DNA of 64,000 nt from Deferribacteraceae bacterium (GTDB lineage Bacteria; Chrysiogenota; Deferribacteres; Deferribacterales; Deferrivibrionaceae). The first letter of the stretch is position 1. Each line of letters starts with the position of its first letter. The translations under genes and the position numbers were made by a program. The stretch covers positions 1 to 64,000 of the forward strand of contig JAIHAR010000008.1 in assembly GCA_020054865.1 (NCBI GenBank), given 5' to 3'. Positions 894-28,349 of the stretch are shown one piece after another. Under the pieces are notes generated by a model. That model worked only from the letters and a program-made list of their open reading frames with translations, made no database searches and had not been told where the DNA came from.

Positions 894-1313
894 ATGAATA
901 ATAGAAAGGATTTAAATTTTTTACTTCAAGAATGTAGTTTTAAATCATTAAAAAAAGTATGCGACGAAGTAACTAATTCTCACAAAATTGAAATAGTTGA
1001 GAAACCAAACTTATACACTGTTTTAGTCCCAGTCAAAGATCCGATTTCAGGTGGTAGTTTTTATGTAGGTGAAGTTTTGACCACAAGGTGTATTGTTAGG
1101 ATAGATGAAAAACATATGGGATGGGCTATGGTTTATGATGAAAACTATGAGATGGCTAATTATGTTGCCATATTAGATGCTGCCTACGGAGCCGGTTTTT
1201 TTATAGAAAAGATCGACAACTTACTTGCTGAAGGAAGGAACAATTTCGTCCTTAAGAAGAGATATATCAATCAATATGCTCATTCAACTAAGGTAGAATT
1301 TGATTTGATGTGA
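894..1313 (+). CDS. phnG: C-P lyase complex subunit PhnG
   Basis: Small core subunit of the PhnGHIJ carbon-phosphorus lyase complex. With PhnI, L and H it helps form ribose 1-methylphosphonate 5-triphosphate from ATP and a phosphonate. At 139 residues it has the family's usual length and a recognisable central stretch, GEVLTTRCIVRI, followed by an alanine-rich helix near residues 90-105. GGAGG lies just before the ATG. It sits between phnC and phnH in the standard order. There are no catalytic residues to check, since the family's role is structural and partly unresolved. Confidence 0.93.
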   Translation: MNNRKDLNFLLQECSFKSLKKVCDEVTNSHKIEIVEKPNLYTVLVPVKDPISGGSFYVGEVLTTRCIVRIDEKHMGWAMVYDENYEMANYVAILDAAYGAGFFIEKIDNLLAEGRNNFVLKKRYINQYAHSTKVEFDLM

Positions 1314-1320
1314 GGTTAAA

Positions 1321-1851
1321 ATGATAAAGTTTGATATTGAAAAAATAAATAGAGAAAACTTCAGGAAGATTTTAAAAGGATTCTCATATCCAGCCACTAA
1401 GTCTGATATTGAGCTTTTTATGAATGACATCCAGCTCACCTTCGGAGTGCTATTTTTATATTCAAATGTTACGTATTACATTGAGAATGATGAAAAATTT
1501 GAGGTTATCAAAAGCATTACCAATGCTGAAAAGGTATGCCTGGATGAAGCTGATTATGTGTTTCTATCAGAATTTACAGATACAGAGTTTACTAAATGCA
1601 AAATAGGTAACATTTTAAATCCAGAAAAATCTACTACAGTTATAATGATGGGAGCAAACTCTACAATAAATGTAAAGTTAAATGGTCCTGGAATTGAAAA
1701 TGAAAAGTTTGTTGATCTTCCTTTAACAGAAAAATTCGTTGAAAATTTCAGAAAAATAAACGGGAATTTTCCGCTGGGGTTAGATTTTATAATTTATGAC
1801 AATAAAAATAGCTTTTTTGTTTTAACAAGAACCACAAAATTGGAGGTATAA
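1321..1851 (+). CDS. phnH: C-P lyase complex subunit PhnH
   Basis: Subunit of the PhnGHIJ core complex; PhnH dimers have a PLP-transferase-like fold without cofactor in the known structure. This 176-residue copy is slightly short for the family and diverged, but the N-terminal FRKILKGFSYP segment and the position between phnG and phnI fix it. GAGG precedes the ATG. Its TAA stop is directly abutted by the phnI start codon, implying translational coupling. Confidence 0.88.
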   Translation: MIKFDIEKINRENFRKILKGFSYPATKSDIELFMNDIQLTFGVLFLYSNVTYYIENDEKFEVIKSITNAEKVCLDEADYVFLSEFTDTEFTKCKIGNILNPEKSTTVIMMGANSTINVKLNGPGIENEKFVDLPLTEKFVENFRKINGNFPLGLDFIIYDNKNSFFVLTRTTKLEV

Positions 1852-2886
1852 ATGGGATATGTTGCTGTCAAAGGTGGCGAAAAAGCAATAAAGCACGCAA
1901 TATCTTTTTATGATAAATTTCTCGATTTTTTTGAAAATGAAGGTATTGACAAAAAAAACTTTTTTGTAATTCAAGAGATACTAAGTGAGTCATCACTCTA
2001 TTCAACTAATGTCACCACAAATATATTTCATAAAATTGGTGGAGACAAATTTGCTAGCTCATTTTTTATGAGATCCTTTAGAAGTAGTTGTAATAATATA
2101 AATGGGAAAAGAGCCATAGATGTTAATAAATTGAGAATAATCAGAAAGATATCATCTGCTTTTAAAAATGTTCCAGGAGGTCAGATTTTAGGGCCTTCTC
2201 TTGATTATCTTGTGAAGGTAGTGGGTACACTTGAAAGCGTAGATAATTTCAACATAGAGAGCTTTCCTGATACAGACATTATTTCTGATTCAATTTTGGA
2301 AAGTTTTAGAGAAAAAAATCTGGTTAAAACTTTACCTAAAGAAGAAGACCCTTTTGATATTACGAAAATATTTCCAGAACCACCTTACAAAAGAAGCGCA
2401 GTTTTACAGATGATGGCACGAGGTGAAACAGGTTCACTGCTTGCATTCGCATACACATCTATGAGAGGATACGGTGATGTTCATCCTACAATAGGTGATT
2501 TACGTGTTGGCTTTGCTGAAATATATTTAGAACATCCTTTTATTGGTGAAGAAGTAAAAGTATGCGAGATACTTTTAACTTCATGTGAAATTTTGTCTAA
2601 GTTTGAAAAGCAAGAGGATGGTAGAGTAAAACTTACTTCAGGGTTTGGCGCTTGTTTTGGATTTAACGAAACAAAAGCTATATCAATGGCTATAATTGAT
2701 TCTGCTCTGTACAATTCAAGTTATACGAATAATTCTCAGGACATTGCAAGTAACTTTGATATTATTATGAATCATATAGACTCTATAGAATCAGTAGGAT
2801 TTGCTAATCACTACAAATTACCTCATTATGTTACTTTTTTATCTGACTTAAAAGTCTTTGAAAACGTTTTAAAGGGAGGTAACTGA
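1852..2886 (+). CDS. phnI: C-P lyase complex subunit PhnI
   Basis: PhnI is the nucleosidase-like component that, with G, H and L, attaches the phosphonate to the ribose of ATP while releasing adenine. The protein (344 residues) begins with the family hallmark VAVKGGEKAI and has the conserved MARGETGSLLAFAYTSMRGY and DVHPTIGDLRVG blocks in the middle. The ribosome site GGAGG lies in the last codons of phnH. A GGAGG is followed by phnJ five bases after the stop. Length and motifs agree with an active subunit. Confidence 0.96.
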   Translation: MGYVAVKGGEKAIKHAISFYDKFLDFFENEGIDKKNFFVIQEILSESSLYSTNVTTNIFHKIGGDKFASSFFMRSFRSSCNNINGKRAIDVNKLRIIRKISSAFKNVPGGQILGPSLDYLVKVVGTLESVDNFNIESFPDTDIISDSILESFREKNLVKTLPKEEDPFDITKIFPEPPYKRSAVLQMMARGETGSLLAFAYTSMRGYGDVHPTIGDLRVGFAEIYLEHPFIGEEVKVCEILLTSCEILSKFEKQEDGRVKLTSGFGACFGFNETKAISMAIIDSALYNSSYTNNSQDIASNFDIIMNHIDSIESVGFANHYKLPHYVTFLSDLKVFENVLKGGN

Positions 2887-2891
2887 TTGTT

Positions 2892-3722
2892 ATGACATAT
2901 GCTTTTTTAAACGAAGATTCAAAAAAAGAAATAAGACGGGCAATTTTGAAAGCGATATCTATTCCAGGCTATCTTGTCCCTTTTGCTTCCAGGGAGATGC
3001 CGGTTGCAAGAGGTTGGGGGACCGGTGGCATTCAGATAACCCTAAGCATAATTAAGGAAGATGATATTTTTAAAATAATTGACCAGGGTTGTGATGGAAG
3101 TGTCAATGCTGTAACTTTACGAAATTTTATAAAATCGACTACTATAGTAAAAACTACATTTGAAACTGATAAAAGCACTCTGATTCAAAGCAGACACAGA
3201 ATTCCTGAAATACCCTTAAAGGAAAATCAGATATTGGTCTTACAGGTTCCATATCCTGATGTACTTGTAAATGTTGAACCAGATTATGGGAAAAGAAAAG
3301 TTATGCATGCTTACAGAGATTACTCAAAACTATGGGTCTTGTTGTATGAAGATATAGTAAAATATAGCATTAGCAGATTTGCAAGCAGTTATCCAGTAGT
3401 TGTTAACGACTATTACATTATGGATCCAAGTCCTATCCCTAAGTTTGACATCCCTAAATTGAATAAAAATAGAGGATTAATCTTATTTGGGGCAGGTCGT
3501 GAAAAGATGATCTATGCTGTTCCTCCATATACTAAAGTAGAGCCTTTGGTTTTTGAAGATTTGGGTTTTGAAGTGGAAACTTTTAACAATATTTCATGCC
3601 ATAGGTGTGGTGCTACAGGTGTATTTATGGATGAAATAGTCAATGAGATAGGAGAAAAAAAGTACTACTGTAACGATACAAGTTATTGCGATTTGATTTT
3701 GAATAGAAAGTCGGAGGAGTAA
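2892..3722 (+). CDS. phnJ: C-P lyase PhnJ (radical SAM-type carbon-phosphorus bond cleavage)
   Basis: Catalytic subunit that cleaves the C-P bond of ribose 1-methylphosphonate 5-phosphate, using an iron-sulfur cluster, S-adenosylmethionine and a glycyl radical. The 276-residue sequence keeps the IPGY glycine (Gly26, matching E. coli Gly32), the RGWGTGGIQ block and the C-terminal cluster cysteines C236, C239, C260 and C266 (C-x2-C-x20-C-x5-C). The segment FGAGREKMIYAVPPYT is also typical. All residues that I can place as essential are present. It is followed immediately by phnK with no gap. Confidence 0.97.
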   Translation: MTYAFLNEDSKKEIRRAILKAISIPGYLVPFASREMPVARGWGTGGIQITLSIIKEDDIFKIIDQGCDGSVNAVTLRNFIKSTTIVKTTFETDKSTLIQSRHRIPEIPLKENQILVLQVPYPDVLVNVEPDYGKRKVMHAYRDYSKLWVLLYEDIVKYSISRFASSYPVVVNDYYIMDPSPIPKFDIPKLNKNRGLILFGAGREKMIYAVPPYTKVEPLVFEDLGFEVETFNNISCHRCGATGVFMDEIVNEIGEKKYYCNDTSYCDLILNRKSEE

Positions 3723-4553
3723 ATGCCGAAAATTTTAGAGATTAATTCACTGTCAAAGATATATGGGAAAGGTTGTAGTTATTGCAATAAAATTATTTAT
3801 GAAAAGAGTGAAGAGAGTATCTGCCCGGAATGCAATAGTGTCTTAGCACTTAAAGACATAAGCTTTAGTATAAAAAAGGGAGATAGGTTTGGGATAGTAG
3901 GAGAAAGTGGTAGCGGAAAATCTACCTTATTAAAAATATTATATCTGCTTGAAACTCCTACAACAGGAGATGTTATAATTTATGATAATTCCGCCCCAAG
4001 ACATATGTCAAATATCAGTATTAATCAAGTTAATTACTTTCAAAATAATATAATGTCTTTTATCAGGCAAAACCCTTATCAAGGGCTAAATTTTAATTTT
4101 ACAGCCAGCGGTAATGTCGCCGAAAGAGTGATTGCTAAAGGGAATCAAAATTTTAACAGTGTTAGAGAGATTTCCAATAGTTTTCTGTCAAAAACCGGAA
4201 TTTTAAAAAACAGATTTTATGACTTACCTTCACAGTTTAGTGGTGGTCAACAACAAAGGATACAAATTGCTAAAGCTCTTGCAAGTAACCCTCAGATTAT
4301 ACTTTTAGACGAGCCAACAACAGGGCTTGATTTGACAATACAGGCGGTCATTTTAGACCTTTTAAAAGCTCTGTATGAAGAATACGGATTTACTATGGTA
4401 GTTGTTTCTCATGATCTTGGTATTATTAAACATTTAACAGATATTTGTATTGTTATGAAAAATGGCAGCATTGTAGAATTTGGTCTTACGGATCAAATAC
4501 TTCAAGATCCACAACATCCATACACCCAATCTTTGATTTCTAGTATGCTGTAG
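3723..4553 (+). CDS. phnK: C-P lyase ABC-type ATPase PhnK with Cys4 insert
   Basis: ABC-family ATPase that binds the PhnGHIJ core; it is not a membrane transporter component. Walker A GESGSGKST is at 60-68, the signature FSGGQQQR and Walker B IILLDEP follow in order. Near the N-terminus four cysteines (C18, C21, C34, C37; C-x2-C-x12-C-x2-C) form a zinc-ribbon-like insert that E. coli PhnK lacks; I recall similar inserts in other bacterial PhnK proteins, but could not check. GGAGG lies in the end of phnJ, and the ATG directly follows the phnJ stop. Confidence 0.93.
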   Translation: MPKILEINSLSKIYGKGCSYCNKIIYEKSEESICPECNSVLALKDISFSIKKGDRFGIVGESGSGKSTLLKILYLLETPTTGDVIIYDNSAPRHMSNISINQVNYFQNNIMSFIRQNPYQGLNFNFTASGNVAERVIAKGNQNFNSVREISNSFLSKTGILKNRFYDLPSQFSGGQQQRIQIAKALASNPQIILLDEPTTGLDLTIQAVILDLLKALYEEYGFTMVVVSHDLGIIKHLTDICIVMKNGSIVEFGLTDQILQDPQHPYTQSLISSML

Positions 4554-18737: not shown

Positions 18738-18766
18738 TCTTACAAATTTTTTGGGGTAAATAAGCA

Positions 18767-18785
18767 AAAAAATGTTGCATTTTTT
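18767..18785 (+). terminator. weak A/T hairpin after the transglycosylase gene
   Basis: AAAAAATG (18767-18774) and CATTTTTT (18778-18785) can pair around TTG, ending in a T-run. The stem has only two GC pairs, so this is a weak candidate terminator. Confidence 0.35.
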
Positions 18786-18836
18786 CTTAAATATGTATAT
18801 TTCCATATATATAGTTATGAGGATATAAGGTGTTTT

Positions 18837-19790
18837 ATGTCTGAAAATTCTTGCGTTAAATTTTTACCTGTTTCGGTTTTTGCAACAGTAATGGGGCTTA
18901 TGGGAGTTACTCTTGCATTTGAGAGGGTGGGAAAAATTTTTCACCTGAATGTTCATAGTGTCTATGTTTTATTGTTAGTAATTGTTAATATATGGTTTTT
19001 GTTTTTGAGCGGAACGTATCTTTTAAAATTTCTGAAATTTCCTGAAGAAGTCAGAAAAGATTTTTCTCATCCTGTTAAGCTCAATTTTATACCAACATTT
19101 TCCATAAGCTTGATACTGTTTTCCATTGGTTATTTTGAGATAAGTAAAACAGTTTCGCTTATATACTGGATATCAGGTGTTATTATCCATATGCTCTTGC
19201 TTTTTTATATTATAAATAAATGGTTTTTTCATGATTTTAAGATAAATGTAAAAAATCCGGCGTGGTTTATACCTGTTGTGGGGCCAATTCTTGCTCCTAT
19301 AAGCGGAGCTGCTTTTTCTATTGAGGCTTCCTGGTTTTTTTATAGTATAGGTATAGTTTTGTGGCTTCCAATTTTTTCAATACTTCTTTACAGAGTAATT
19401 TTTAATGATCCTTTACCTCCAAAGCTATTACCTACACTTTTTATTATGATTGCTCCTCCTGCTGTTGGTTTTATTTCCTATATTAAACTGAGCCAGCAGC
19501 TTGATAATTTTTCGAGGGTTTTGTTTTATTTTGGCGTTTTTGTTTTTATGCTCCTTTTAACTTTTTACGGAAGATTTTCAAGACTTCAATTTTTTCTGTC
19601 CTGGTGGGCCTATACATTCCCTATGGCTGCATTTACCATCAGTATAGTGCTATATTTTCATCTGACACATTTTGTGTTTTTCAAGTATTTTGCGCTACTT
19701 GCATTTATGCTTACGCTGGCAGTTGTGCTTATTGTGTTGGTTAAGTCGTTTAAAAGCTTCCTAAAGGGAGAAATCTGCGTGGAGGAATAG
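18837..19790 (+). CDS. TehA/SLAC1-family (TDT) anion channel-like carrier
   Basis: Integral membrane protein of 317 residues with about ten hydrophobic segments. The opening FLPVSVFATVMGLMGVTLAF and the middle NPAWFIPVVGPILAPISG are typical of the tellurite-resistance/dicarboxylate (TDT) family, whose members are anion channels or carriers such as TehA and SLAC1. The substrate cannot be told. It stands alone between the transglycosylase and the Rrf2 gene. The start has no strong Shine-Dalgarno, only AAGGTG six bases upstream. Confidence 0.82.
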   Translation: MSENSCVKFLPVSVFATVMGLMGVTLAFERVGKIFHLNVHSVYVLLLVIVNIWFLFLSGTYLLKFLKFPEEVRKDFSHPVKLNFIPTFSISLILFSIGYFEISKTVSLIYWISGVIIHMLLLFYIINKWFFHDFKINVKNPAWFIPVVGPILAPISGAAFSIEASWFFYSIGIVLWLPIFSILLYRVIFNDPLPPKLLPTLFIMIAPPAVGFISYIKLSQQLDNFSRVLFYFGVFVFMLLLTFYGRFSRLQFFLSWWAYTFPMAAFTISIVLYFHLTHFVFFKYFALLAFMLTLAVVLIVLVKSFKSFLKGEICVEE

Positions 19791-19805
19791 ATTTATTAAA
19801 AATTA

Positions 19806-19854
19806 TTGACAAAAATTTTTTGCAATTGTATTGTTTACCTGAGAGGTAAACAAT
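19806..19854 (+). promoter_or_regulatory. rrf2 promoter and perfect operator palindrome
   Basis: TTGACA (19806-19811) and TATTGT (19829-19834) are 17 bases apart. A perfect inverted repeat, ATTGTTTACCT (19830-19840) and AGGTAAACAAT (19844-19854) around GAG, overlaps the -10 box, the likely transcription start, the ribosome site GAGAGG and the first bases of the ATG. Occupation would block both transcription and initiation, a pattern expected of autoregulation by the Rrf2 protein encoded next. The leader would be only about a dozen bases. Confidence 0.72.
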
Positions 19855-20272
19855 GTCTTTTATAAAGAGAGAAGCTGACTATGCAATCAGAGTTGCTGCC
19901 TTTCTTGCGGGCCAAAACAAAAAGGTCAAAATTGACCATATCTGTGAAAAATTATTTTTAAATAAGCCTATTGTTATAAAAATCATACATCAACTTTCAA
20001 AATGTGGTATAATAGTAACTGAGACAGGTAAATATGGCGGTGTTTCCTTGAATCCTGATTGCGTTGATTTGAGTTTATTGGATATTTTAAAGTGTATGGG
20101 ATTTGTGAACTCGATTAATATTTGTGTTGACCAACCTGAAAAGTGTCAGCTTAATCCTATTTGTAATATCACTGTATTTTTTAAAAAGATTCAGGATGAT
20201 GTTGAAGAAAGGTTGAAATCAGCAAAACTGAAAGATTTTGTTTTTAGTGAGGAAAGTTTAAATATTTTGTAG
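19853..20272 (+). CDS. Rrf2-family transcriptional regulator with three cysteines
   Basis: Winged-helix DNA-binding protein, 139 residues, of the Rrf2 family (IscR, NsrR, RirA relatives). The helix-turn-helix covers about residues 25-65, including KYGGVSLN. Three cysteines C91, C98 and C104 (C-x6-C-x5-C) match the place where relatives bind an iron-sulfur cluster and sense nitric oxide, iron or redox state; which one is not predictable. GAGAGG lies in the operator palindrome. It is the first gene of the cbb3 oxidase operon, which it probably controls. Confidence 0.85.
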   Translation: MSFIKREADYAIRVAAFLAGQNKKVKIDHICEKLFLNKPIVIKIIHQLSKCGIIVTETGKYGGVSLNPDCVDLSLLDILKCMGFVNSINICVDQPEKCQLNPICNITVFFKKIQDDVEERLKSAKLKDFVFSEESLNIL

Positions 20273-20282
20273 GAGGTAGTTT

Positions 20283-20312
20283 ATGGAACAGTACCGTTAA
20301 GATTACGAAACG
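20283..20312 (+). other. lost N-terminus of ccoN: in-frame TAA at codon 6
   Basis: AGGAGG (20272-20277) is ideally placed for ATG 20283, in frame with ccoN. The reading is M-E-Q-Y-R-stop-D-Y-E-T-V then KGF. CcoN proteins commonly start with a similar Tyr-Asp-x-Glu-Thr-Val segment, so the TAA at 20298-20300 probably replaces a sense codon such as TAT or TAC. Either a real nonsense change or a base-call error. Confidence 0.65.
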
Positions 20313-21701
20313 GTGAAAGGTTTTATTTTGTCCGCCATTTTCTGGGGTGTAATAGGACTTGTTGCTGGTCTCTGGATTTCAGCCCAGATGTGGGATGCTG
20401 CTTTGAATCTTCCGCCATATTTCAGTTTTGGAAGGCTCAGGACATTTCATACCAATGTGTTGGTATATGGGCTTGGAATTGGTGCTGAATTTGGTGTGTT
20501 TTACTATCTTGTTATAAGGCTTACAAAAAGACCGCTTTTGTTCCCAAAGTTGGCGAGATTTCATTTGTGGCTGTTTAACATAGGGGTTGCAATTGCGGGT
20601 ATTACGCTTTTGCTTGGCTGGACACAGTCATTGGAATACGCAGAATTTGAGTGGCCAATTGATATTGCAATCGTGATTCTATGGGTAATTTTTGCTATCA
20701 ATATTATGGGCACAATTTTCAAGCGCAAAGAGCAGCAGATGTATATTTCATTGTGGTATATTATTGCTACAATTATAACTGTTGCAATTCTTTACATTGT
20801 GAATAACCTATCTATTCCGGCGGGGCTTGATAAATCCTATCACCTGTTTGCAGGTGTCAATAGTGCCAATGTACAGTGGTGGTATGGTCATAATGCCGTT
20901 GGCTTCCTATTTACTACTCCGATTCTTGCAATGTTTTACTATTTCTTGCCAAAGTCAACCGGATTGCCGATATACAGTCATAGACTATCAATCATTTCGT
21001 TTTGGTCATTGATATTTGCTTATCTCTGGACCGGTGCACACCATCTTGTCTATACTCCGCTTCCAGACTGGATACAGACACTTGGTATAGCATTTACACT
21101 CTTTTTAATTGCTCCTTCCTGGGGGAGTGTTGTAAATGGATATTTTACTGTTGAGTCAGACTGGTCTGTTATGAAAAACAATTATCTTACAAAGTTTTTT
21201 ATAGCAGGTATTACTTTTTACGGATTGCAGACCATTCAGGGCCCATCTCAGGGTATTAGGGTTATAAGTTCTTTAATTCACTATACAGATTGGGTTCCAG
21301 GCCATGTGCATATGGGGACAATGGGCTGGGTTACAATGGTGATATGTGCTTCGGTTTACTATATAATTCCTCATATTTATAAAACTACAATTTACAGTGA
21401 AAAACTTGCAAATGCTCATTTCTGGATTGTTCTTATTGGACAGCTTGCTTTTTCCATTACAATGTGGATTACCGGTGTTCAGCAGGGCGCAATGTGGAAG
21501 ATGACTAATCCTGATGGAACATTGAAGTATACTTTTATGGAAGGGCTTCTTAGAAACTATCCTTACTGGCAAATGAGAACACTGGCTGGTGTAGTATTTG
21601 TAGTGGGGATGCTTCTTTTTATTTACAATGTTATGATGACAATTAAAAAAGGTAAGGCTGAGCTTGAAGCAAAAGTTGAGCCTGCTACCGCAACTGCTTA
21701 A
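20313..21701 (+). CDS. ccoN: cbb3-type cytochrome c oxidase subunit I CcoN
   Basis: Heme-copper oxidase catalytic subunit that reduces oxygen to water in the inner membrane. The 462-residue frame has about twelve hydrophobic segments, including RTFHTNVLVYG (low-spin heme ligand), GHNAVGFLFTTP (copper ligand histidine) and PGHVHMGTMGWV. The open frame begins at GTG 20313, but the ribosome site and true N-terminus lie upstream behind an in-frame TAA. If translation starts only here, the first cytoplasmic residues are missing while the first membrane segment remains. Otherwise it looks complete. Confidence 0.88.
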   Translation: MKGFILSAIFWGVIGLVAGLWISAQMWDAALNLPPYFSFGRLRTFHTNVLVYGLGIGAEFGVFYYLVIRLTKRPLLFPKLARFHLWLFNIGVAIAGITLLLGWTQSLEYAEFEWPIDIAIVILWVIFAINIMGTIFKRKEQQMYISLWYIIATIITVAILYIVNNLSIPAGLDKSYHLFAGVNSANVQWWYGHNAVGFLFTTPILAMFYYFLPKSTGLPIYSHRLSIISFWSLIFAYLWTGAHHLVYTPLPDWIQTLGIAFTLFLIAPSWGSVVNGYFTVESDWSVMKNNYLTKFFIAGITFYGLQTIQGPSQGIRVISSLIHYTDWVPGHVHMGTMGWVTMVICASVYYIIPHIYKTTIYSEKLANAHFWIVLIGQLAFSITMWITGVQQGAMWKMTNPDGTLKYTFMEGLLRNYPYWQMRTLAGVVFVVGMLLFIYNVMMTIKKGKAELEAKVEPATATA

Positions 21702-21712
21702 AGGGGGAAAAT

Positions 21713-22654
21713 ATGTCTGAGAATAAAAAACTTTACAGCAATGCATTAATATTTTCTCTTGCTGCGGCGATTACGGTTCTGATTGGAACAATTGTTACGA
21801 TGTTTTTGCCGATGTTTACCGAAGGGATGCATCCGAAACTGAAAGAATTAAAACCATATACTGCCTTGCAGCTTGCAGGACGTGATATTTATCAAAGAGA
21901 AGGGTGCGTAAATTGTCATACACAGACAGTCAGGCCATTAAAGTCTGATGTACTGATGTATGGAGATTATTCAAAAGCCGGTGAATTTGCTTACGACAGG
22001 CCATTTTTATGGGGTTCCAAAAGGACAGGTCCAGATCTTGCAAGAATTGGGGGCAAATATCCTGATGACTGGCATTATCAGCATATGACCAATCCACAGG
22101 CATTTTATGAAAAATCTAATATGCCAAAGTATGCCTTTTTAAATGATAGAAAAGTTGCAGTTGAAAAAACAATTTCTCATATGAAAGCACTTGGATTCCC
22201 ATATACAGATGCAGATATTGAACAGCTAAAAAACAGCACAGAAATGGATGCGATAGTTGCCTACCTGCAGTCAATTGGAGCAGCAGTTGCCAAAAAAGCG
22301 ATACTTCAAATTGATGAATCAATGGTTGAAGAGGTTAGCCCTTTTGCAGGCAACAAAGATGCTGTTTTAAAAGGGGAAAGACTTTACAAAGCGGAATGTG
22401 CAGGATGCCATGGTCAAAATGCCGAAGGCAATATTGGCGGCTCACTCGTGGATTATGCCGCTGCCGAAAATCCTGACAGAGACATTTATCTGACAATTGC
22501 AAATGGGTTTGAAGGTGCAATGCCGGGCTTTGCGGCAGCTTGCAAATCAAACTTCTTTGTTACATATCCGCGTTTGAAGGTGCAATGCCGGGCTTTGCGG
22601 CTATCTATGACAAAAAAGAAATCTGGTCGCTGGTGGAGTACATTAAGAGTTTAA
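21713..22654 (+). CDS. ccoO: cbb3 oxidase CcoO fused to a CcoP-like cytochrome c domain, C-terminus scrambled
   Basis: Membrane-anchored c-type cytochrome subunit. Residues 1-200 are CcoO, with an N-terminal anchor, heme motif GCVNCHTQTVRP and Met ligand in SNMPKYAFL. A second cytochrome c domain follows (CAGCH, Met in GAMPGF), like part of CcoP. After the first GFEGAMPGFAA the frame is lost: a 65-base insertion separates two identical 29-base copies. Removing it would restore an ending like GAMPGFAAIYDKKEIWSLVEY and a stop at 22660-22662, next to the following gene's AGGAGG. The present stop is 22652-22654. The final helix is missing or replaced. Confidence 0.85.
   Translation: MSENKKLYSNALIFSLAAAITVLIGTIVTMFLPMFTEGMHPKLKELKPYTALQLAGRDIYQREGCVNCHTQTVRPLKSDVLMYGDYSKAGEFAYDRPFLWGSKRTGPDLARIGGKYPDDWHYQHMTNPQAFYEKSNMPKYAFLNDRKVAVEKTISHMKALGFPYTDADIEQLKNSTEMDAIVAYLQSIGAAVAKKAILQIDESMVEEVSPFAGNKDAVLKGERLYKAECAGCHGQNAEGNIGGSLVDYAAAENPDRDIYLTIANGFEGAMPGFAAACKSNFFVTYPRLKVQCRALRLSMTKKKSGRWWSTLRV
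22508..22601 (+). repeat. 29-bp direct repeat flanking 36 bp (65-bp offset)
   Basis: Positions 22508-22536 and 22573-22601 are identical over 29 bases. They are separated by 36 bases with no obvious relation to the gene. The offset of 65 is not a multiple of three, so it shifts the ccoO frame. Only the second copy leads into the sequence expected for the C-terminus. Confidence 0.9.
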
Positions 22655-22671
22655 AAAAGTAGGAGGCTTAA

Positions 22672-22860
22672 ATGTACAAAGAAGAATTTGATGATCTTGA
22701 AAAATTTGAAAGGGAAGATACAAAGCATAAGTTACCTTTAGGATGGTTAATCCTATTTATTGGACTTATAGTATTTGGTATCTTTTATACTTATATGTAC
22801 ACACCTGCATTTACAGGTTGGTCACAGAGTAAAGTTTTTGAAGAGTCAATGAAAAAATAA
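22672..22860 (+). CDS. ccoP: CcoP N-terminal-like cbb3 oxidase subunit (FixP_N type), no heme domain
   Basis: Sixty-two residues: a charged N-terminus, one membrane helix (LPLGWLILFIGLIVFGIFYTYMY) and a short tail with GWSQ. This matches only the N-terminal anchor of CcoP; the diheme part is absent, and a cytochrome domain is fused to CcoO instead. It may therefore supply the CcoP anchor only. AGGAGG, overlapping the intended ccoO stop, precedes the ATG. Confidence 0.75.
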   Translation: MYKEEFDDLEKFEREDTKHKLPLGWLILFIGLIVFGIFYTYMYTPAFTGWSQSKVFEESMKK

Positions 22861-22868
22861 TAAAGTTT

Positions 22869-22893
22869 GAAGGGGCTAAAAATTTGCCCCTTC
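22869..22893 (+). terminator. GC-rich hairpin inside the cbb3 operon
   Basis: GAAGGGGC (22869-22876) and GCCCCTTC (22886-22893) form an eight-pair stem with a nine-base loop, directly after the ccoP-like stop. No T-tract follows, so it is more likely an attenuator or transcript-stability element than a complete terminator. Confidence 0.45.
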
Positions 22894-22915
22894 TTACTGC
22901 TAAGCGGAGTAAAAT

Positions 22916-23062
22916 ATGCCGAAAGACTTGCTTGCATATCTTATTTTCGGATTTTCACTGGTAGCGCTTTTTGTGTGGATAATTTTTCACTACTATTCAA
23001 AAAAAAGGCATGAGAAAGTGGAATCTATAAAATACAAAATTTTACAGGATGATGATGAGTAA
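22916..23062 (+). CDS. small CcoQ-like membrane protein
   Basis: Forty-eight residues: MPKDLLAYLIFGFSLVALFV, then a charged tail ending in DDDE. One membrane helix followed by a basic then acidic tail recalls CcoQ (FixQ) or CcoS, but the CcoS proper is downstream at 24784. It overlaps the ccoG start by eight bases. GCGGAG lies ahead of the ATG. Confidence 0.65.
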   Translation: MPKDLLAYLIFGFSLVALFVWIIFHYYSKKRHEKVESIKYKILQDDDE

Positions 23063-24269
23063 CTTTCAGTCATACAGGCGAGTTGTCAGAATTTTTCTGA
23101 TAGTTACTGCGATAGTTTTGCCTTTTATAAAGATAAACGGCAATCACTTACTTATATTTGATATTTACACATTTGAGTTTCATATATTCGGGCTTGTTTT
23201 GCAGATAAATCAGTTTTTGCCTCTTCTGGCACTGGCGTTGTTTATTACTTTTTTATTTTTATATATAACAGTAACTTTTGGCAGAATATGGTGTGGCTGG
23301 CTTTGTCCTCAGTCTGTTTCAATGGAAGTTACATCATTTATGGATAAATTTTCAAAAAATGCCATATCTATTAAGGTGTTAAAATTAATTTTAGTTTATT
23401 TCATATCTCTGCTTATTGCAGCAAACATTTTGCTGTATTTTATTCCATATGAAATATTTTTTAAAAGTTTAACCGGTGAGCATTTCAGTAGAGGTATTTT
23501 TATATCTTTGATGGTACTTGGTACTTTACTTTTTTTAAATTTCTGGCTTGTCAGGTACAGATTTTGTGCGACCGTTTGTCCATATTCTATGCTTCAATCG
23601 ATGCTTTTTGATAAACATACCCTTGCCGTATGGATGATTCCGGAGACGCGTGATGAATGTATTAAATGTATGGCCTGTGTAAAAGTTTGTTCAACGGGTA
23701 TAGATATAAGGCAGGGGCAAAATTCTGCTTGTATTAATTGTGCCAAATGTATCGATGCCTGTGCCGATGTTATGGCAAAAAAAGGGAAAAAGTCGCTTTT
23801 TGCATATAGATTTGGTGAGAACAACATAAAGAATTTTACAAGATTTTCATCGATTGTTTCAATGTTTCTGGCAATAGTTTCTTTTGTAGTTTTTATATTG
23901 GTGGCTTTTAATACAAAAAATGTGCAGGTAGAAGTTATTCCTTACAAAAAGTTTCTTCCGAGATATGTTGGTGATTTTGCTGCAAACGGGTTTATTCTGG
24001 TAGTTGAAAACAGCGATAATGTAAATAAAAAAATAAAAATTGAATTAAGAGATATGACAGAATATGAAATTACCCCCGACAGCATGTTTGAGGTTGGTGC
24101 AGATTCGAAGAAGGATTTTACGTTTTTTATAAAGATTAAAAAGAATATTGTTGAAGGCAAGCCGATTTTGAATCTCAAAATGAGAATTTTGAATATTACA
24201 GATAACAAAGAGGAGATTAAAGATTTGAGCTTTAGAAGACCATTTGATTCAAAGGGGAAAAAACAATGA
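23055..24269 (+). CDS. ccoG: CcoG (RdxA/FixG) cbb3 oxidase assembly protein
   Basis: Membrane-bound polyferredoxin thought to reduce copper for oxidase assembly. The 404 residues contain about five hydrophobic segments, CGWLCPQSVSMEV, YRFCATVCPYSMLQ, then ferredoxin motifs CIKCMACVKVC and CINCAKCIDAC, and a C-terminal immunoglobulin-like domain after the last helix. Three consecutive ATGs occur at 23049-23057; I use the third, five bases after AGGA. Confidence 0.92.
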   Translation: MSNFQSYRRVVRIFLIVTAIVLPFIKINGNHLLIFDIYTFEFHIFGLVLQINQFLPLLALALFITFLFLYITVTFGRIWCGWLCPQSVSMEVTSFMDKFSKNAISIKVLKLILVYFISLLIAANILLYFIPYEIFFKSLTGEHFSRGIFISLMVLGTLLFLNFWLVRYRFCATVCPYSMLQSMLFDKHTLAVWMIPETRDECIKCMACVKVCSTGIDIRQGQNSACINCAKCIDACADVMAKKGKKSLFAYRFGENNIKNFTRFSSIVSMFLAIVSFVVFILVAFNTKNVQVEVIPYKKFLPRYVGDFAANGFILVVENSDNVNKKIKIELRDMTEYEITPDSMFEVGADSKKDFTFFIKIKKNIVEGKPILNLKMRILNITDNKEEIKDLSFRRPFDSKGKKQ

Positions 24270-24688
24270 GAATGATGCTGGGGCTTGTCTTACTGGGGTT
24301 ATTGCTGCTTGGCTCATCGTTTTATTTTGGAATTAAATACTTTGATGGGAAGGTTGAAGAAAAACCTTATGAAGAGGCAAGTTTATACGACATGAAAAGG
24401 GAAATTGTGGAAAAAAATCATTTGAGCCTTGAAATATTGAATATCGAAAAATTGGACAATAAGTATAAGATTTGTTTTACCATAAACGGAAATATTGAAA
24501 GACCATTCCCCATTGAGGGTGTGGAAATACTCAGGCCGGCAGGCAAAGATGTAATAAGGCCTGACATAAGAGTCAGAGAAAAAATCTGCAGTGTCAATGT
24601 GCCTTTAAGTCAGGGCTACTATATTTTGAAGGTATTTTTAAGGATGAAAGAGATTGTAAGTCTTGAGAAGACAATTTCAATAAAGTAG
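24266..24688 (+). CDS. ccoH: CcoH/FixH-like assembly protein
   Basis: A 140-residue protein with one N-terminal membrane segment (MMLGLVLLGLLLLG) and a periplasmic FixH-like domain. Its place between ccoG and ccoS/ccoI is the standard position of ccoH, which helps copper transfer or complex assembly. The start overlaps the ccoG stop (ATGA). Sequence similarity alone would be weak, so context carries the assignment. Confidence 0.78.
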   Translation: MRMMLGLVLLGLLLLGSSFYFGIKYFDGKVEEKPYEEASLYDMKREIVEKNHLSLEILNIEKLDNKYKICFTINGNIERPFPIEGVEILRPAGKDVIRPDIRVREKICSVNVPLSQGYYILKVFLRMKEIVSLEKTISIK

Positions 24689-24697
24689 GAGGCAGTT

Positions 24698-24781
24698 ATG
24701 AAGAAAGGGACAATTATTATGATTCTGTCAATTATAGCAATGTTGGTTATACCTTTATTGATTGCGTTAAGTATAAAATAA
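24698..24781 (+). CDS. 27-residue single-pass membrane peptide in the cbb3 operon
   Basis: MKKGTIIMILSIIAMLVIPL then LIALSIK: two lysines followed by one long hydrophobic helix. AGGAGG is seven bases before the ATG and the stop is two bases before ccoS, so translation is well supported. I do not recognise it. Size and place suggest a small oxidase subunit or assembly helper. Confidence 0.65.
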   Translation: MKKGTIIMILSIIAMLVIPLLIALSIK

Positions 24782-24783
24782 TT

Positions 24784-24927
24784 ATGGGTTCACTCTTTTT
24801 TTTGGTACCGCTTAGTCTTTTGCTCGGTATTATTGTGCTTATTTTGTTTTTCTGGGCGGTGAAAAATAAACAGTTTGACGATGTAGAAGGGCCTAAATAC
24901 AGAATGTTAGATGACGACGACGAATAA
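24784..24927 (+). CDS. ccoS: CcoS-family cbb3 oxidase assembly protein
   Basis: Forty-seven residues: MGSLFFLVPLSLLLGIIVLI, FWAVKNKQFDDVEGPKYRML, and an acidic tail. The F-W-A-V...Q-F-D-D-x-E-G-P pattern is the CcoS hallmark. CcoS works with CcoI in cofactor insertion. It overlaps the ccoI start by 17 bases. Confidence 0.9.
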   Translation: MGSLFFLVPLSLLLGIIVLILFFWAVKNKQFDDVEGPKYRMLDDDDE

Positions 24928-27352
24928 TTTGACCCAGTGCAGTCACTGTTTGTTAAAATTTAACAAAAATACTGCAATAGTAGAAAAAGAAGGTGAGGAG
25001 GAACTTCACTTTTGCTGCCCGGGCTGTCAAAGTGTTTATCATTTGATAAAGGATGGTGGTTTTGGCGGTTTTTATAAAAAGAGGAGAGATTACAAACCAG
25101 GACCACCTGAGCTTTCTGTTGTAAGCGATGATCTGTTTATTGATGATGTATTAAAGCATGATGATTATTATGAATTGGAATTTATTGCCACCAATATCAG
25201 GTGCGCAGCCTGCATCTGGCTTATAGAAAATTATCTTTCAAAACTCGAGGGTATAAAATACGTGAGAGCAAATTATGCTACTCACAAAGTGAAGGTCCAT
25301 TGGGATTTCAATAAAATATCATTAGACAAAATCCTTAATGGTATTGCTGAATTGGGATACACCCCAATGCCGGTTTCTGCCATGTCATCTTCAGATTACT
25401 TTGTAAGTTTGAAAAAGTCATACTTTTATAAATTCGCTATCGGTGCATTTTTTACAATGCAGATAATGATTTATTCGGTTGCTTTATATGCGGGGTATTT
25501 TCAGGGAATAGATAACAATCTTAAATTAATGTTTAGAATTATTGCAATGATTCTTGCTACGCCTGTTGTGTTTTATTCCGGCTTGCCTTTTGCAGTAAAC
25601 TCAATAAATTCTCTGAAAAATCGAACTTTAAATATGGATGTGCTGGTATTTCTCGGCTCATATTCAGCATACTTTTACAGTCTTTACGGAATATTTACGG
25701 GTGGGGAGATATACTTTGACACATCGGCAATGATAATTACCCTTATTCTGCTTGGCAGATATATTGAAACAGAGGCCAAGATAAGAGCATCAAAGGAGAT
25801 ATCCCTTTTGTTCAATCTTCAGCCAAGGCAGACAAAGATAATTAAAAATTTTGATGAAGAAAATTACAAAACGGGGAAATTAAAACCTGTAATAGTTAAA
25901 ACTTCTTCGGTGAAAAAAGGTGATTATGTTGAGGTTTTGCCTGGAGAAAATATTCCGGTGGACGGTGTTGTGGTTTATGGGACATCTGAAATAGATGAGT
26001 CTATGTTTACCGGAGAAAGTGTACCTGTGCATAAAAGGTCAGGAGATTATGTGATTTCCGGTACTTTTAATTTAAATGGAACACTTATTTTTAAGGTTCT
26101 TGAGGAGCCTGGAAAATCATCTCTCAATAAAATTGCAGAAGCAATAAAAAAGGCACAGGAGAGCAAGTTTTATTTTCAAAAACTTGCAGATAGGATTACC
26201 TCTTTTTTTGTGCCTTCTGTAATTGCAATCTCGTGCATCACATTTTTATACTGGTATTATTCAGGCGCTAAATTTGTGGATGCTTTTTTAAATTCCGTAT
26301 CTGTCCTTGTAATTGCCTGCCCATGTGCTATGGGGCTTGCAACCCCTCTTGCAATATTGATAGCCACTTCAACTGCCTTTAAAAAAGGTATTCTTATTAA
26401 GGAAGGCTCTATCCTTGAAAATATTTCAAAGGTTAAAAGTGTCTTTTTTGATAAGACAGGCACAATAACGGAAGGTATTCCTTCTATTGTAGAAATAAGG
26501 GCATATGATTTTTCAGATGTTCTCAAAGTAGCAGCTTCTATTGAGCGTTTTTCCAGACATATTCTGGCAAAATCCATTGTCAATGCTTATAAAGATGATT
26601 TTTTGGAGATTGAAAATGTAAAAGAAATTCCAGGCCTAGGGATGGTAGGTTATACTCCTGACAAAAAAATTGTTGCAGCCGGGAATTTGGCACTCCTTGA
26701 CAATCTCAATATCAGAGCAGATAAGCAGATTTTGAATGATTTCAATACATCTTCCCGCAAAGGTTATACAAATATCTTTGTCGTCTATGATAAGAAAGTT
26801 ATTGGAATAATATCGATGTTTGATAGGGTAAAGGATAAATTTGATGAAATTTATCAGTTTTTGTTGATGAAAAATATCGATATGACTGTACTGACCGGGG
26901 ATACAAAAAGCACAGCAGAAGCAGTTTTAAAAAATTATCCGGCGCTAAATATTTTAAGTTCATTAACCCCTTCAGAAAAGGTTGAGTATGTTAAAAATAA
27001 TCTGAATAAGTTTCCAATAATGATAGGGGATGGGATAAATGATGCACCAGCCTTAAAGCAGGCTTTTATCGGAATTGGGATGGGTAAAGGTACTGAAATA
27101 GCCCTTGAAAGTGCTGATGCGGTATTTTTAAACAGCAATATTTTACTTTTAAAAGATTTTTTTAAAATTGCCTCAAAAGCAAGAAAAATTATAATGGAAA
27201 ATCTTTTCTGGGCTTTTTCCTATAACTTTATTGCCATACCACTGGCAGTCAGCGGAAAAATTCACCCGGTATTTTCTGCAATTTTTATGAGCATAAGTTC
27301 TCTTCTGGTGGTATTTAACTCACTAAGGATTAAAACCTTATCCCTGAAATAA
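24911..27352 (+). CDS. ccoI: CcoI-type copper P-type ATPase
   Basis: Heavy-metal P1B ATPase supplying copper for the cbb3 oxidase. The order is an N-terminal Cys-rich domain (CSHC, HFCCPGC), an HMA-like domain with CAAC, about eight membrane helices with CPCAMGLATP, the phosphorylation site FDKTGTIT, and GDGINDAPAL near the end. At 813 residues the length is normal for the Cys-rich CcoI/FixI type. It overlaps the convergent gene at 27330 by 23 bases, so the operon ends here. Confidence 0.92.
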   Translation: MTTTNNLTQCSHCLLKFNKNTAIVEKEGEEELHFCCPGCQSVYHLIKDGGFGGFYKKRRDYKPGPPELSVVSDDLFIDDVLKHDDYYELEFIATNIRCAACIWLIENYLSKLEGIKYVRANYATHKVKVHWDFNKISLDKILNGIAELGYTPMPVSAMSSSDYFVSLKKSYFYKFAIGAFFTMQIMIYSVALYAGYFQGIDNNLKLMFRIIAMILATPVVFYSGLPFAVNSINSLKNRTLNMDVLVFLGSYSAYFYSLYGIFTGGEIYFDTSAMIITLILLGRYIETEAKIRASKEISLLFNLQPRQTKIIKNFDEENYKTGKLKPVIVKTSSVKKGDYVEVLPGENIPVDGVVVYGTSEIDESMFTGESVPVHKRSGDYVISGTFNLNGTLIFKVLEEPGKSSLNKIAEAIKKAQESKFYFQKLADRITSFFVPSVIAISCITFLYWYYSGAKFVDAFLNSVSVLVIACPCAMGLATPLAILIATSTAFKKGILIKEGSILENISKVKSVFFDKTGTITEGIPSIVEIRAYDFSDVLKVAASIERFSRHILAKSIVNAYKDDFLEIENVKEIPGLGMVGYTPDKKIVAAGNLALLDNLNIRADKQILNDFNTSSRKGYTNIFVVYDKKVIGIISMFDRVKDKFDEIYQFLLMKNIDMTVLTGDTKSTAEAVLKNYPALNILSSLTPSEKVEYVKNNLNKFPIMIGDGINDAPALKQAFIGIGMGKGTEIALESADAVFLNSNILLLKDFFKIASKARKIIMENLFWAFSYNFIAIPLAVSGKIHPVFSAIFMSISSLLVVFNSLRIKTLSLK

Positions 27353-27983
27353 TAAAAAATATTCCAAGTGTCAGCATTATTAAAAAGCTCAATATCCTGA
27401 AAAGAAACCTAACTTTAAGAATAATATTCCCGAATATAGAAACTAAAAGCATTGAAAATGTAGTGCCAATTCCAAAAAGCGCCATTGAAAGTGCCGATTT
27501 ATAGACATTTGAAAGCGAAGTTACGCCAATCAATGCCCCATAAAGCAGCCCACATGGAAGAAATCCCAAAATTAATCCCATTATAAATGGTGAATTAAAT
27601 TTTACTTTTGAAATTATTGTGCTGATTTTTCTGGTGATAGAATTGTCTTCAAGCCTTGAAATGACTTTCATGCCGAGAATGTCAAATATCCCATAAAAAA
27701 TAAGAAATAATCCTGCTATGATAGACAACGCTTTTTGAAAGATAACAATATCTGAGAAAAGGGTGGTTATATTTGTGGTAAGTCCGAAAACAGCTCCAAG
27801 TATTGAGTAAGTAATTGTTCTGCCTATGTTGTATTTTATTTGAGGGATTAAGAATTTCAGGTAGCCAGGTGAGTTGGGGGCAAATTTGCTTGAAATAAAC
27901 AGCACAAAAGGGTTGCACATAAAAATACAGTGCCCAAACCCTCCAAAGAATCCCAGTGACAAAAAACCTAAAAGTTCCAACAT
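27330..27983 (-). CDS. UreH/TauE-SafE-like membrane protein with conserved cysteines, copper-oxidase associated
   Basis: Polytopic membrane protein of 217 residues with two internally similar halves: GGFGHCIFMCNPFVLF near the N-terminus and LGFLPCGLLYGAL in the second half, and about six helices. Such sulfite-exporter/UreH-type proteins often lie beside ccoGHIS and are proposed to move copper or reductant for oxidase assembly. It runs against the operon and overlaps ccoI by 23 bases. The transported substrate is not known. Confidence 0.75.
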   Translation of the reverse strand: MLELLGFLSLGFFGGFGHCIFMCNPFVLFISSKFAPNSPGYLKFLIPQIKYNIGRTITYSILGAVFGLTTNITTLFSDIVIFQKALSIIAGLFLIFYGIFDILGMKVISRLEDNSITRKISTIISKVKFNSPFIMGLILGFLPCGLLYGALIGVTSLSNVYKSALSMALFGIGTTFSMLLVSIFGNIILKVRFLFRILSFLIMLTLGIFFIISGIRF

Positions 27984-28103
27984 ACAAAACGTTTAACACT
28001 AAACAGAATGAAATTCAATTAAATTATTCAAGACTAATTTTTGCTTGCTTTAAAAGAAACAAATGTTTAATCTGCTTCATATAAAGTTTTTTCTGAGGTA
28101 ATT

Positions 28104-28349
28104 GTGCAGATTGACTACAATTTTTTCATATTTATTTTTGCATTATGTTATAGTGTGTTTTTTGTAATTTTGACTATTGCTCTTAGAAACAGCAAATACA
28201 GAAAAGTCTTGAGATATGTTTCTATTGTTTATAAAGGTTTCAGTTATTATAATGCCAGGGGTATTTTAAAAGGTGCGATATGGGCGTTTGTAGATGGCAT
28301 CATTACCGGTGTAATTGTAGCCTTTATTTTAAGGTTTGCTTTTTCTTAA
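28104..28349 (+). CDS. small two-helix membrane protein of unknown function
   Basis: Eighty-one residues from a GTG start with GAGG six bases upstream. Two hydrophobic helices are at about residues 6-26 and 58-80, separated by a basic, tyrosine-rich loop. The GAIWAFVDGIITGVIVAF ending recalls small bacterial membrane proteins with a glycine-rich second helix, but I cannot name a family. It overlaps the next gene's start by 70 bases. Confidence 0.6.
   Translation: MQIDYNFFIFIFALCYSVFFVILTIALRNSKYRKVLRYVSIVYKGFSYYNARGILKGAIWAFVDGIITGVIVAFILRFAFS

Follow-up and report, generated by a model that had tools for sequence, protein, structure and literature searches.

An early in-frame stop in ccoN suggests recent loss of heme-copper oxygen respiration in a Deferribacter-like bacterium

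The cbb3-type oxidase gene ccoN carries an in-frame TAA at its sixth codon, and we consider it rather likely that a single-base change very recently created a genuine nonsense codon in a formerly intact gene, in a Deferribacter-like anaerobe whose heme-copper O2 respiration is being lost or is no longer needed. Three separate oxidase lesions speak for a real mutation: the TAA in ccoN, a 65-bp insertion in the fused ccoO–cytochrome c gene (ccoO-c) and a TAA in coxA, the gene of the second heme-copper oxidase. The event is most likely ordinary gene decay, which is of a known kind. Selection for O2 respiration would have been relaxed in such an anaerobe; ribosomes starting at ATG 20283 would, as follows from the sequence, make MEQYR only and then terminate, while a small fraction might restart 12–27 nt downstream at GTG 20313 or TTG 20328. 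The restart product would be a weak residual CcoN, shortened by 10 or 15 residues that lie within or ahead of the first transmembrane helix, with the transmembrane and metal-ligand core intact. Because ccoO-c is frameshifted near its C-terminus and coxA is interrupted outright, heme-copper oxidase activity would probably be little or none.

The window analysed here is a stretch of 64,000 nucleotides on contig C28 of the assembly (features are listed in Table 1). Positions 20272–20321 read GGAGGTAGTTT ATG GAA CAG TAC CGT TAA GAT TAC GAA ACG GTG AAA GGT, and the frame of ATG 20283, closed at 20298–20300, is open again until the stop at 21699–21701 on the plus strand. The sequence-only reading had described AGGAGG and ATG 20283 as ideally placed, which agrees with a computed anti-Shine-Dalgarno pairing of -11.6 kcal/mol. 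It had also held that translation could begin again only at GTG 20313, without a clean ribosome site. The poor quality of that site is borne out (computed pairing of only -0.5 kcal/mol), but not its being the sole restart, as TTG 20328 is preceded by a Shine-Dalgarno-like AAAGG with a computed pairing of -7.6 kcal/mol and would be the better-placed of the two.

Table 1. Features of the ccoN region and of coxA, with positions in the window unless a contig is given
Feature	Position	Strand	Remarks
Rrf2-family regulator gene	19853–20272	+	Directly upstream of ccoN; intact
Shine-Dalgarno region of ccoN (TAGGAGGTA)	20270–20278	+	Overlaps stop codon of upstream rrf2-type regulator gene; duplex -11.6 kcal/mol
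Ancestral ccoN start and first codons	20283–20300	+	Now a 5-codon ORF, MEQYR, ending at TAA 20298–20300
In-frame TAA	20298–20300	+	Replaces a Tyr codon (TAC/TAT in both congeners)
Remaining ccoN frame from GTG	20313–21701	+	462 codons; COX1 family; conserved histidines and invariant columns all kept
TTG, alternative restart	20328–20330	+	SD-like AAAGG ~8 nt upstream
ccoO (FixO) fused to cytochrome c (CBB3 subunit III) domain	21713–22654	+	Pfam; C-terminus frameshifted by insertion
Second lesion	22507–22601	+	30-bp exact direct repeat (22507–22536, 22572–22601) around 35-bp filler (22537–22571)
Small FixP_N-type gene	22672–22860	+	Pfam; 62 aa; intact
ccoG/FixG-type ferredoxin-like protein gene	23049–24269	+	Intact
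ccoI-type copper P-type ATPase gene	24911–27352	+	Intact
coxA, A-type heme-copper oxidase gene	C5 2013–3638	-	In-frame TAA at codon 84

Continued production of the oxidase at useful levels, by termination-reinitiation or by direct initiation at GTG 20313 or TTG 20328, would be compatible with a real mutation and would make the lesion nearly neutral or one that lowers expression; we regard this as unlikely, though not negligibly so. The two codons lie 12 and 27 nt past the TAA, the better of them has the AAAGG just described, the residues that would be lost precede the first transmembrane helix, and the downstream coding sequence is fully conserved. However, GTG 20313 lacks a Shine-Dalgarno sequence, the internal AAAGG merely corresponds to conserved Lys-Gly codons that are also present in the congeners, and the co-located frameshift in ccoO-c would harm the complex regardless. 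No usable report was found in the literature on bacterial restart after early nonsense codons.

Comparison with relatives clearly sets the interrupted start apart. Related genomes and the genome collection supplied 108 other ccoN loci with 94 distinct sequences. None of them has a stop at the aligned codon, which encodes Tyr in 89 loci, Gly in 13, Ile in three, Asp in two and Phe in one; the two congeners read CGT TAC GAC and CGT TAT GAC, consistent with the earlier expectation of a tyrosine at this place. Stops flagged within some gut relatives are their normal ends, at the extreme C-terminus of the query. An open in-frame ATG lies upstream of the GTG position in every one of the 108 loci, so that a genuine start at GTG 20313 is ruled out, and the possibility raised by the sequence-only reading that relatives also begin at this GTG finds no example among them. 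The universal upstream ATG and the lack of any aligned stop mark the ccoN TAA as private to this genome rather than a misread start site. They also bear on the idea that MEQYR is a functional leader ORF regulating ccoN: although a strong Shine-Dalgarno sequence precedes the five-codon frame, such a leader occurs in no relative, including the two congeners at 94% protein identity, and its codons align to the conserved N-terminus of CcoN, which makes a regulatory role highly improbable.

The state of the remaining gene speaks against a real mutation: apart from the stop, CcoN is strongly constrained, and nothing but the lesion points to decay. The protein matches PF00115 (COX1) over 426 aa (1.7e-103, 347 bits) and belongs to the C-family, its best relatives being C-family ccoN operons; identity is 94% to the congeners, 84–88% to Calditerrivibrio, which together with other Deferribacterales provides the next relatives, and ~64–88% across homologues from Calditerrivibrio, Seleniivibrio, Nitrospirota and Anaeromyxobacter. 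Judged from these ccoN relatives, from which the genus name is inferred, the host is probably Deferribacter or close to it. All nine near-invariant histidines are kept, in line with conserved heme and CuB histidines, no column that is invariant in other CcoN sequences is changed, and there is no excess of odd substitutions; differences from the ccoN of the congener G001 fall at 42 first, 8 second and 238 third codon positions. Downstream lie FixO with Cytochrome_CBB3, FixP_N, a FixG-type gene and a copper P-type ATPase. The gene thus shares its COX1 match and conserved histidines with the known CcoN of cbb3-type (C-family heme-copper) cytochrome c oxidase and differs in the interruption of its frame, from the conserved start, by a TAA at codon 6 that is found in no other sequence compared. 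As the rest of CcoN is untouched, the stop is either very recent or not real.

No second ccoN was found in this genome, whose assembly is 87.8% complete and may thus leave a copy unassembled. With a disabling change that is absent from 108 relatives and no intact copy in the assembly, ccoN is a candidate unitary pseudogene. As in unitary pseudogenes and in respiratory oxidase loss in oxygen-free lineages, a single-copy gene is interrupted together with companion oxidase genes; in contrast to unitary pseudogenes, the case of ccoN would be very young, marked by the lesion alone, and restart might leave partial function.

A second lesion in the operon, which the sequence-only reading had announced, is indeed present. 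Relative to both congeners the ccoO–cytochrome c fusion gene carries a net insertion of 65 bp, with a 30-bp repeat around a 35-bp filler; past the heme-ligand motif the insertion puts the gene out of frame, so that the final residues of the cytochrome domain are replaced. Within the genome the filler matches only itself (up to three mismatches allowed), and no match was found in viral contigs. Its derivation from a rearranged local copy was rejected, as exact matches in the rest of the sampled sequence reach no more than 13 nt, which is near chance level. The geometry of 22507–22601 resembles a single CRISPR repeat-spacer unit. Contig C32 harbours, at about 1100–4300, a CRISPR array in which a 36-bp repeat occurs more than 40 times; two adjacent spacers, near 2652 and 2728, have overlapping sequences (AAAGAAAAGCAATAACCGGAGAAGT). 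Off-target insertion of a CRISPR spacer was rejected as the source of the 65-bp lesion, since this sole array found has 36-bp repeats and ~40-bp spacers as opposed to 30 and 35 bp, and no array with 30-bp repeats was found in the 1.23 Mb of genome scanned. A scenario in which the two heme-copper oxidases were lost by independent, very young point mutations, with a spacer-like insertion in the cbb3 operon of the kind that a Cas1-Cas2 integrase could make outside an array, is very improbable as a whole, and a Cas1-Cas2-type mechanism of insertion is weakly supported.

The operon differs from a classical one in its ccoP, which is split: ccoO carries the cytochrome c domain as a fusion, and the N-terminal FixP_N segment forms the separate 62-aa gene (21713–22860 for the pair). 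The cbb3 block as a whole (18740–28110 of the window) is placed differently in G001, where it lies at 632–640 kb, and the genes that flank it here are contiguous there (C1 52–91 kb, inverted), more than 500 kb from the block. The arrangement suggests that the block was translocated in one of the two lineages.

In a search for COX1 proteins this genome yielded just two, those of ccoN and of the A-type coxA on contig C5, whose codon 84 is TAA where G001 has Leu. Since coxA is cut deep within the protein, a nearby restart could not rescue it, unlike ccoN. The sequence-only reading had left open four options (sequence error, nonsense mutation, suppression and reinitiation), among which a nonsense mutation is favoured by this nonsense codon in the second oxidase itself, while suppression is unlikely. 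The reading of TAA as an amino acid, by ochre suppression or recoding, is highly improbable, although the frame remains open past the ccoN stop and coxA has the same codon. The two ochre codons stand at different residues, Tyr in ccoN and Leu in coxA, a difference that speaks against a suppressor tRNA; in other parts of the window UAA serves as a normal terminator; and a TTA anticodon is absent among the 33 tRNAs detected, all ordinary, in an assembly that is incomplete and may lack a tRNA. C28:64120–65397 (minus strand) encodes a CydA-like protein that ends in a cytochrome c domain and matches cytochrome bd subunit I only in part; it has counterparts in all four genomes compared and may be the organism's remaining means of handling oxygen.

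The main rival to a real mutation is a wrong consensus in a draft assembly of probably metagenomic origin, the ccoN of the population being intact; we hold this to be possible, though clearly less probable than the nonsense mutation. To gauge how unusual the oxidase lesions are, the proteins encoded in a sample of about 0.93 Mb of G001 were set against 1.23 Mb of this genome, yielding 416 orthologues with 142,392 codons and 15 flagged genes, which were sorted by eye on this partial sample of both genomes. Nine of the 15 are ORF-start artefacts or spurious antisense frames, leaving about six internal lesions: ccoN, the ccoO fusion, coxA, a phage-type integrase, the TRAP transporter gene dctM and a secretin. 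Although the ccoN stop lies near the N-terminus, as the artefacts do, it was retained because the start is conserved in 108 loci. Oxidase genes thus account for three of the about six lesions, with a hypergeometric P of 1.7e-5 for three of six in five oxidase genes. When the two seeding lesions are left out, the P value for hitting an oxidase with any of the four that remain is 0.01–0.05, varying with gene count, so that the pattern is suggestive rather than overwhelming. In the dctM-type gene (C59 6745–8127, minus strand), which is 98% identical to that of the congener, the lesion is an in-frame TGA at codon 373, a Gly in the congener.

Several features of the survey would fit base-calling error: the draft consists of 72 contigs (2.11 Mb, estimated completeness 87.8%), CcoN is otherwise pristine, and a substitution error rate of about 1.9e-4 per base, such as a low-coverage draft could have, would alone yield four point nonsense codons in 142k codons. 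Four is the number found (ccoN, coxA, dctM and the integrase), and all look like transversions, which uniform error mostly gives. Against this, two unlinked oxidase genes are affected and the lesions are concentrated in oxidases, and the structured 65-bp duplication-insertion in the neighbouring gene is not a point base-calling error. A generally frameshift-ridden assembly is ruled out, as the window's remaining conserved genes, about 44, are all intact and no 1-bp frameshift occurs in the 416 orthologues; these observations also stand against consensus error at ccoN.

The literature on Deferribacter offers a context for a genuine, recent nonsense mutation. A 2026 comparison of four Deferribacter species reports ccoN and ccoO in D. 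autotrophicus and D. thermophilus only, and microoxic or low-level O2 respiration has never been tested in Deferribacter (PMC13186404). The partial cbb3 oxidase described for these two species comprises ccoN and ccoO with no classical separate ccoP reported, as is the case here, and the split of ccoP may be the reason why the published survey reports it missing (PMC13186404); in contrast with those species, in which ccoN and ccoO are described as present, both are interrupted in the present genome. A COX1 search identified no second heme-copper oxidase in genomes G002 and G003. Together with the restriction of cbb3 to two of the four Deferribacter species, this suggests that such oxidases are dispensable in the group, and, absence of these oxidases being common there, the genome described here resembles a recent instance of such loss.

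If the lesions were assembly errors, automatic annotation would wrongly list ccoN as starting at GTG or as missing, and coxA as missing. If they are real, both heme-copper oxidases would have been lost very recently in this lineage, which would newly illustrate how an anaerobe gives up oxygen respiration.
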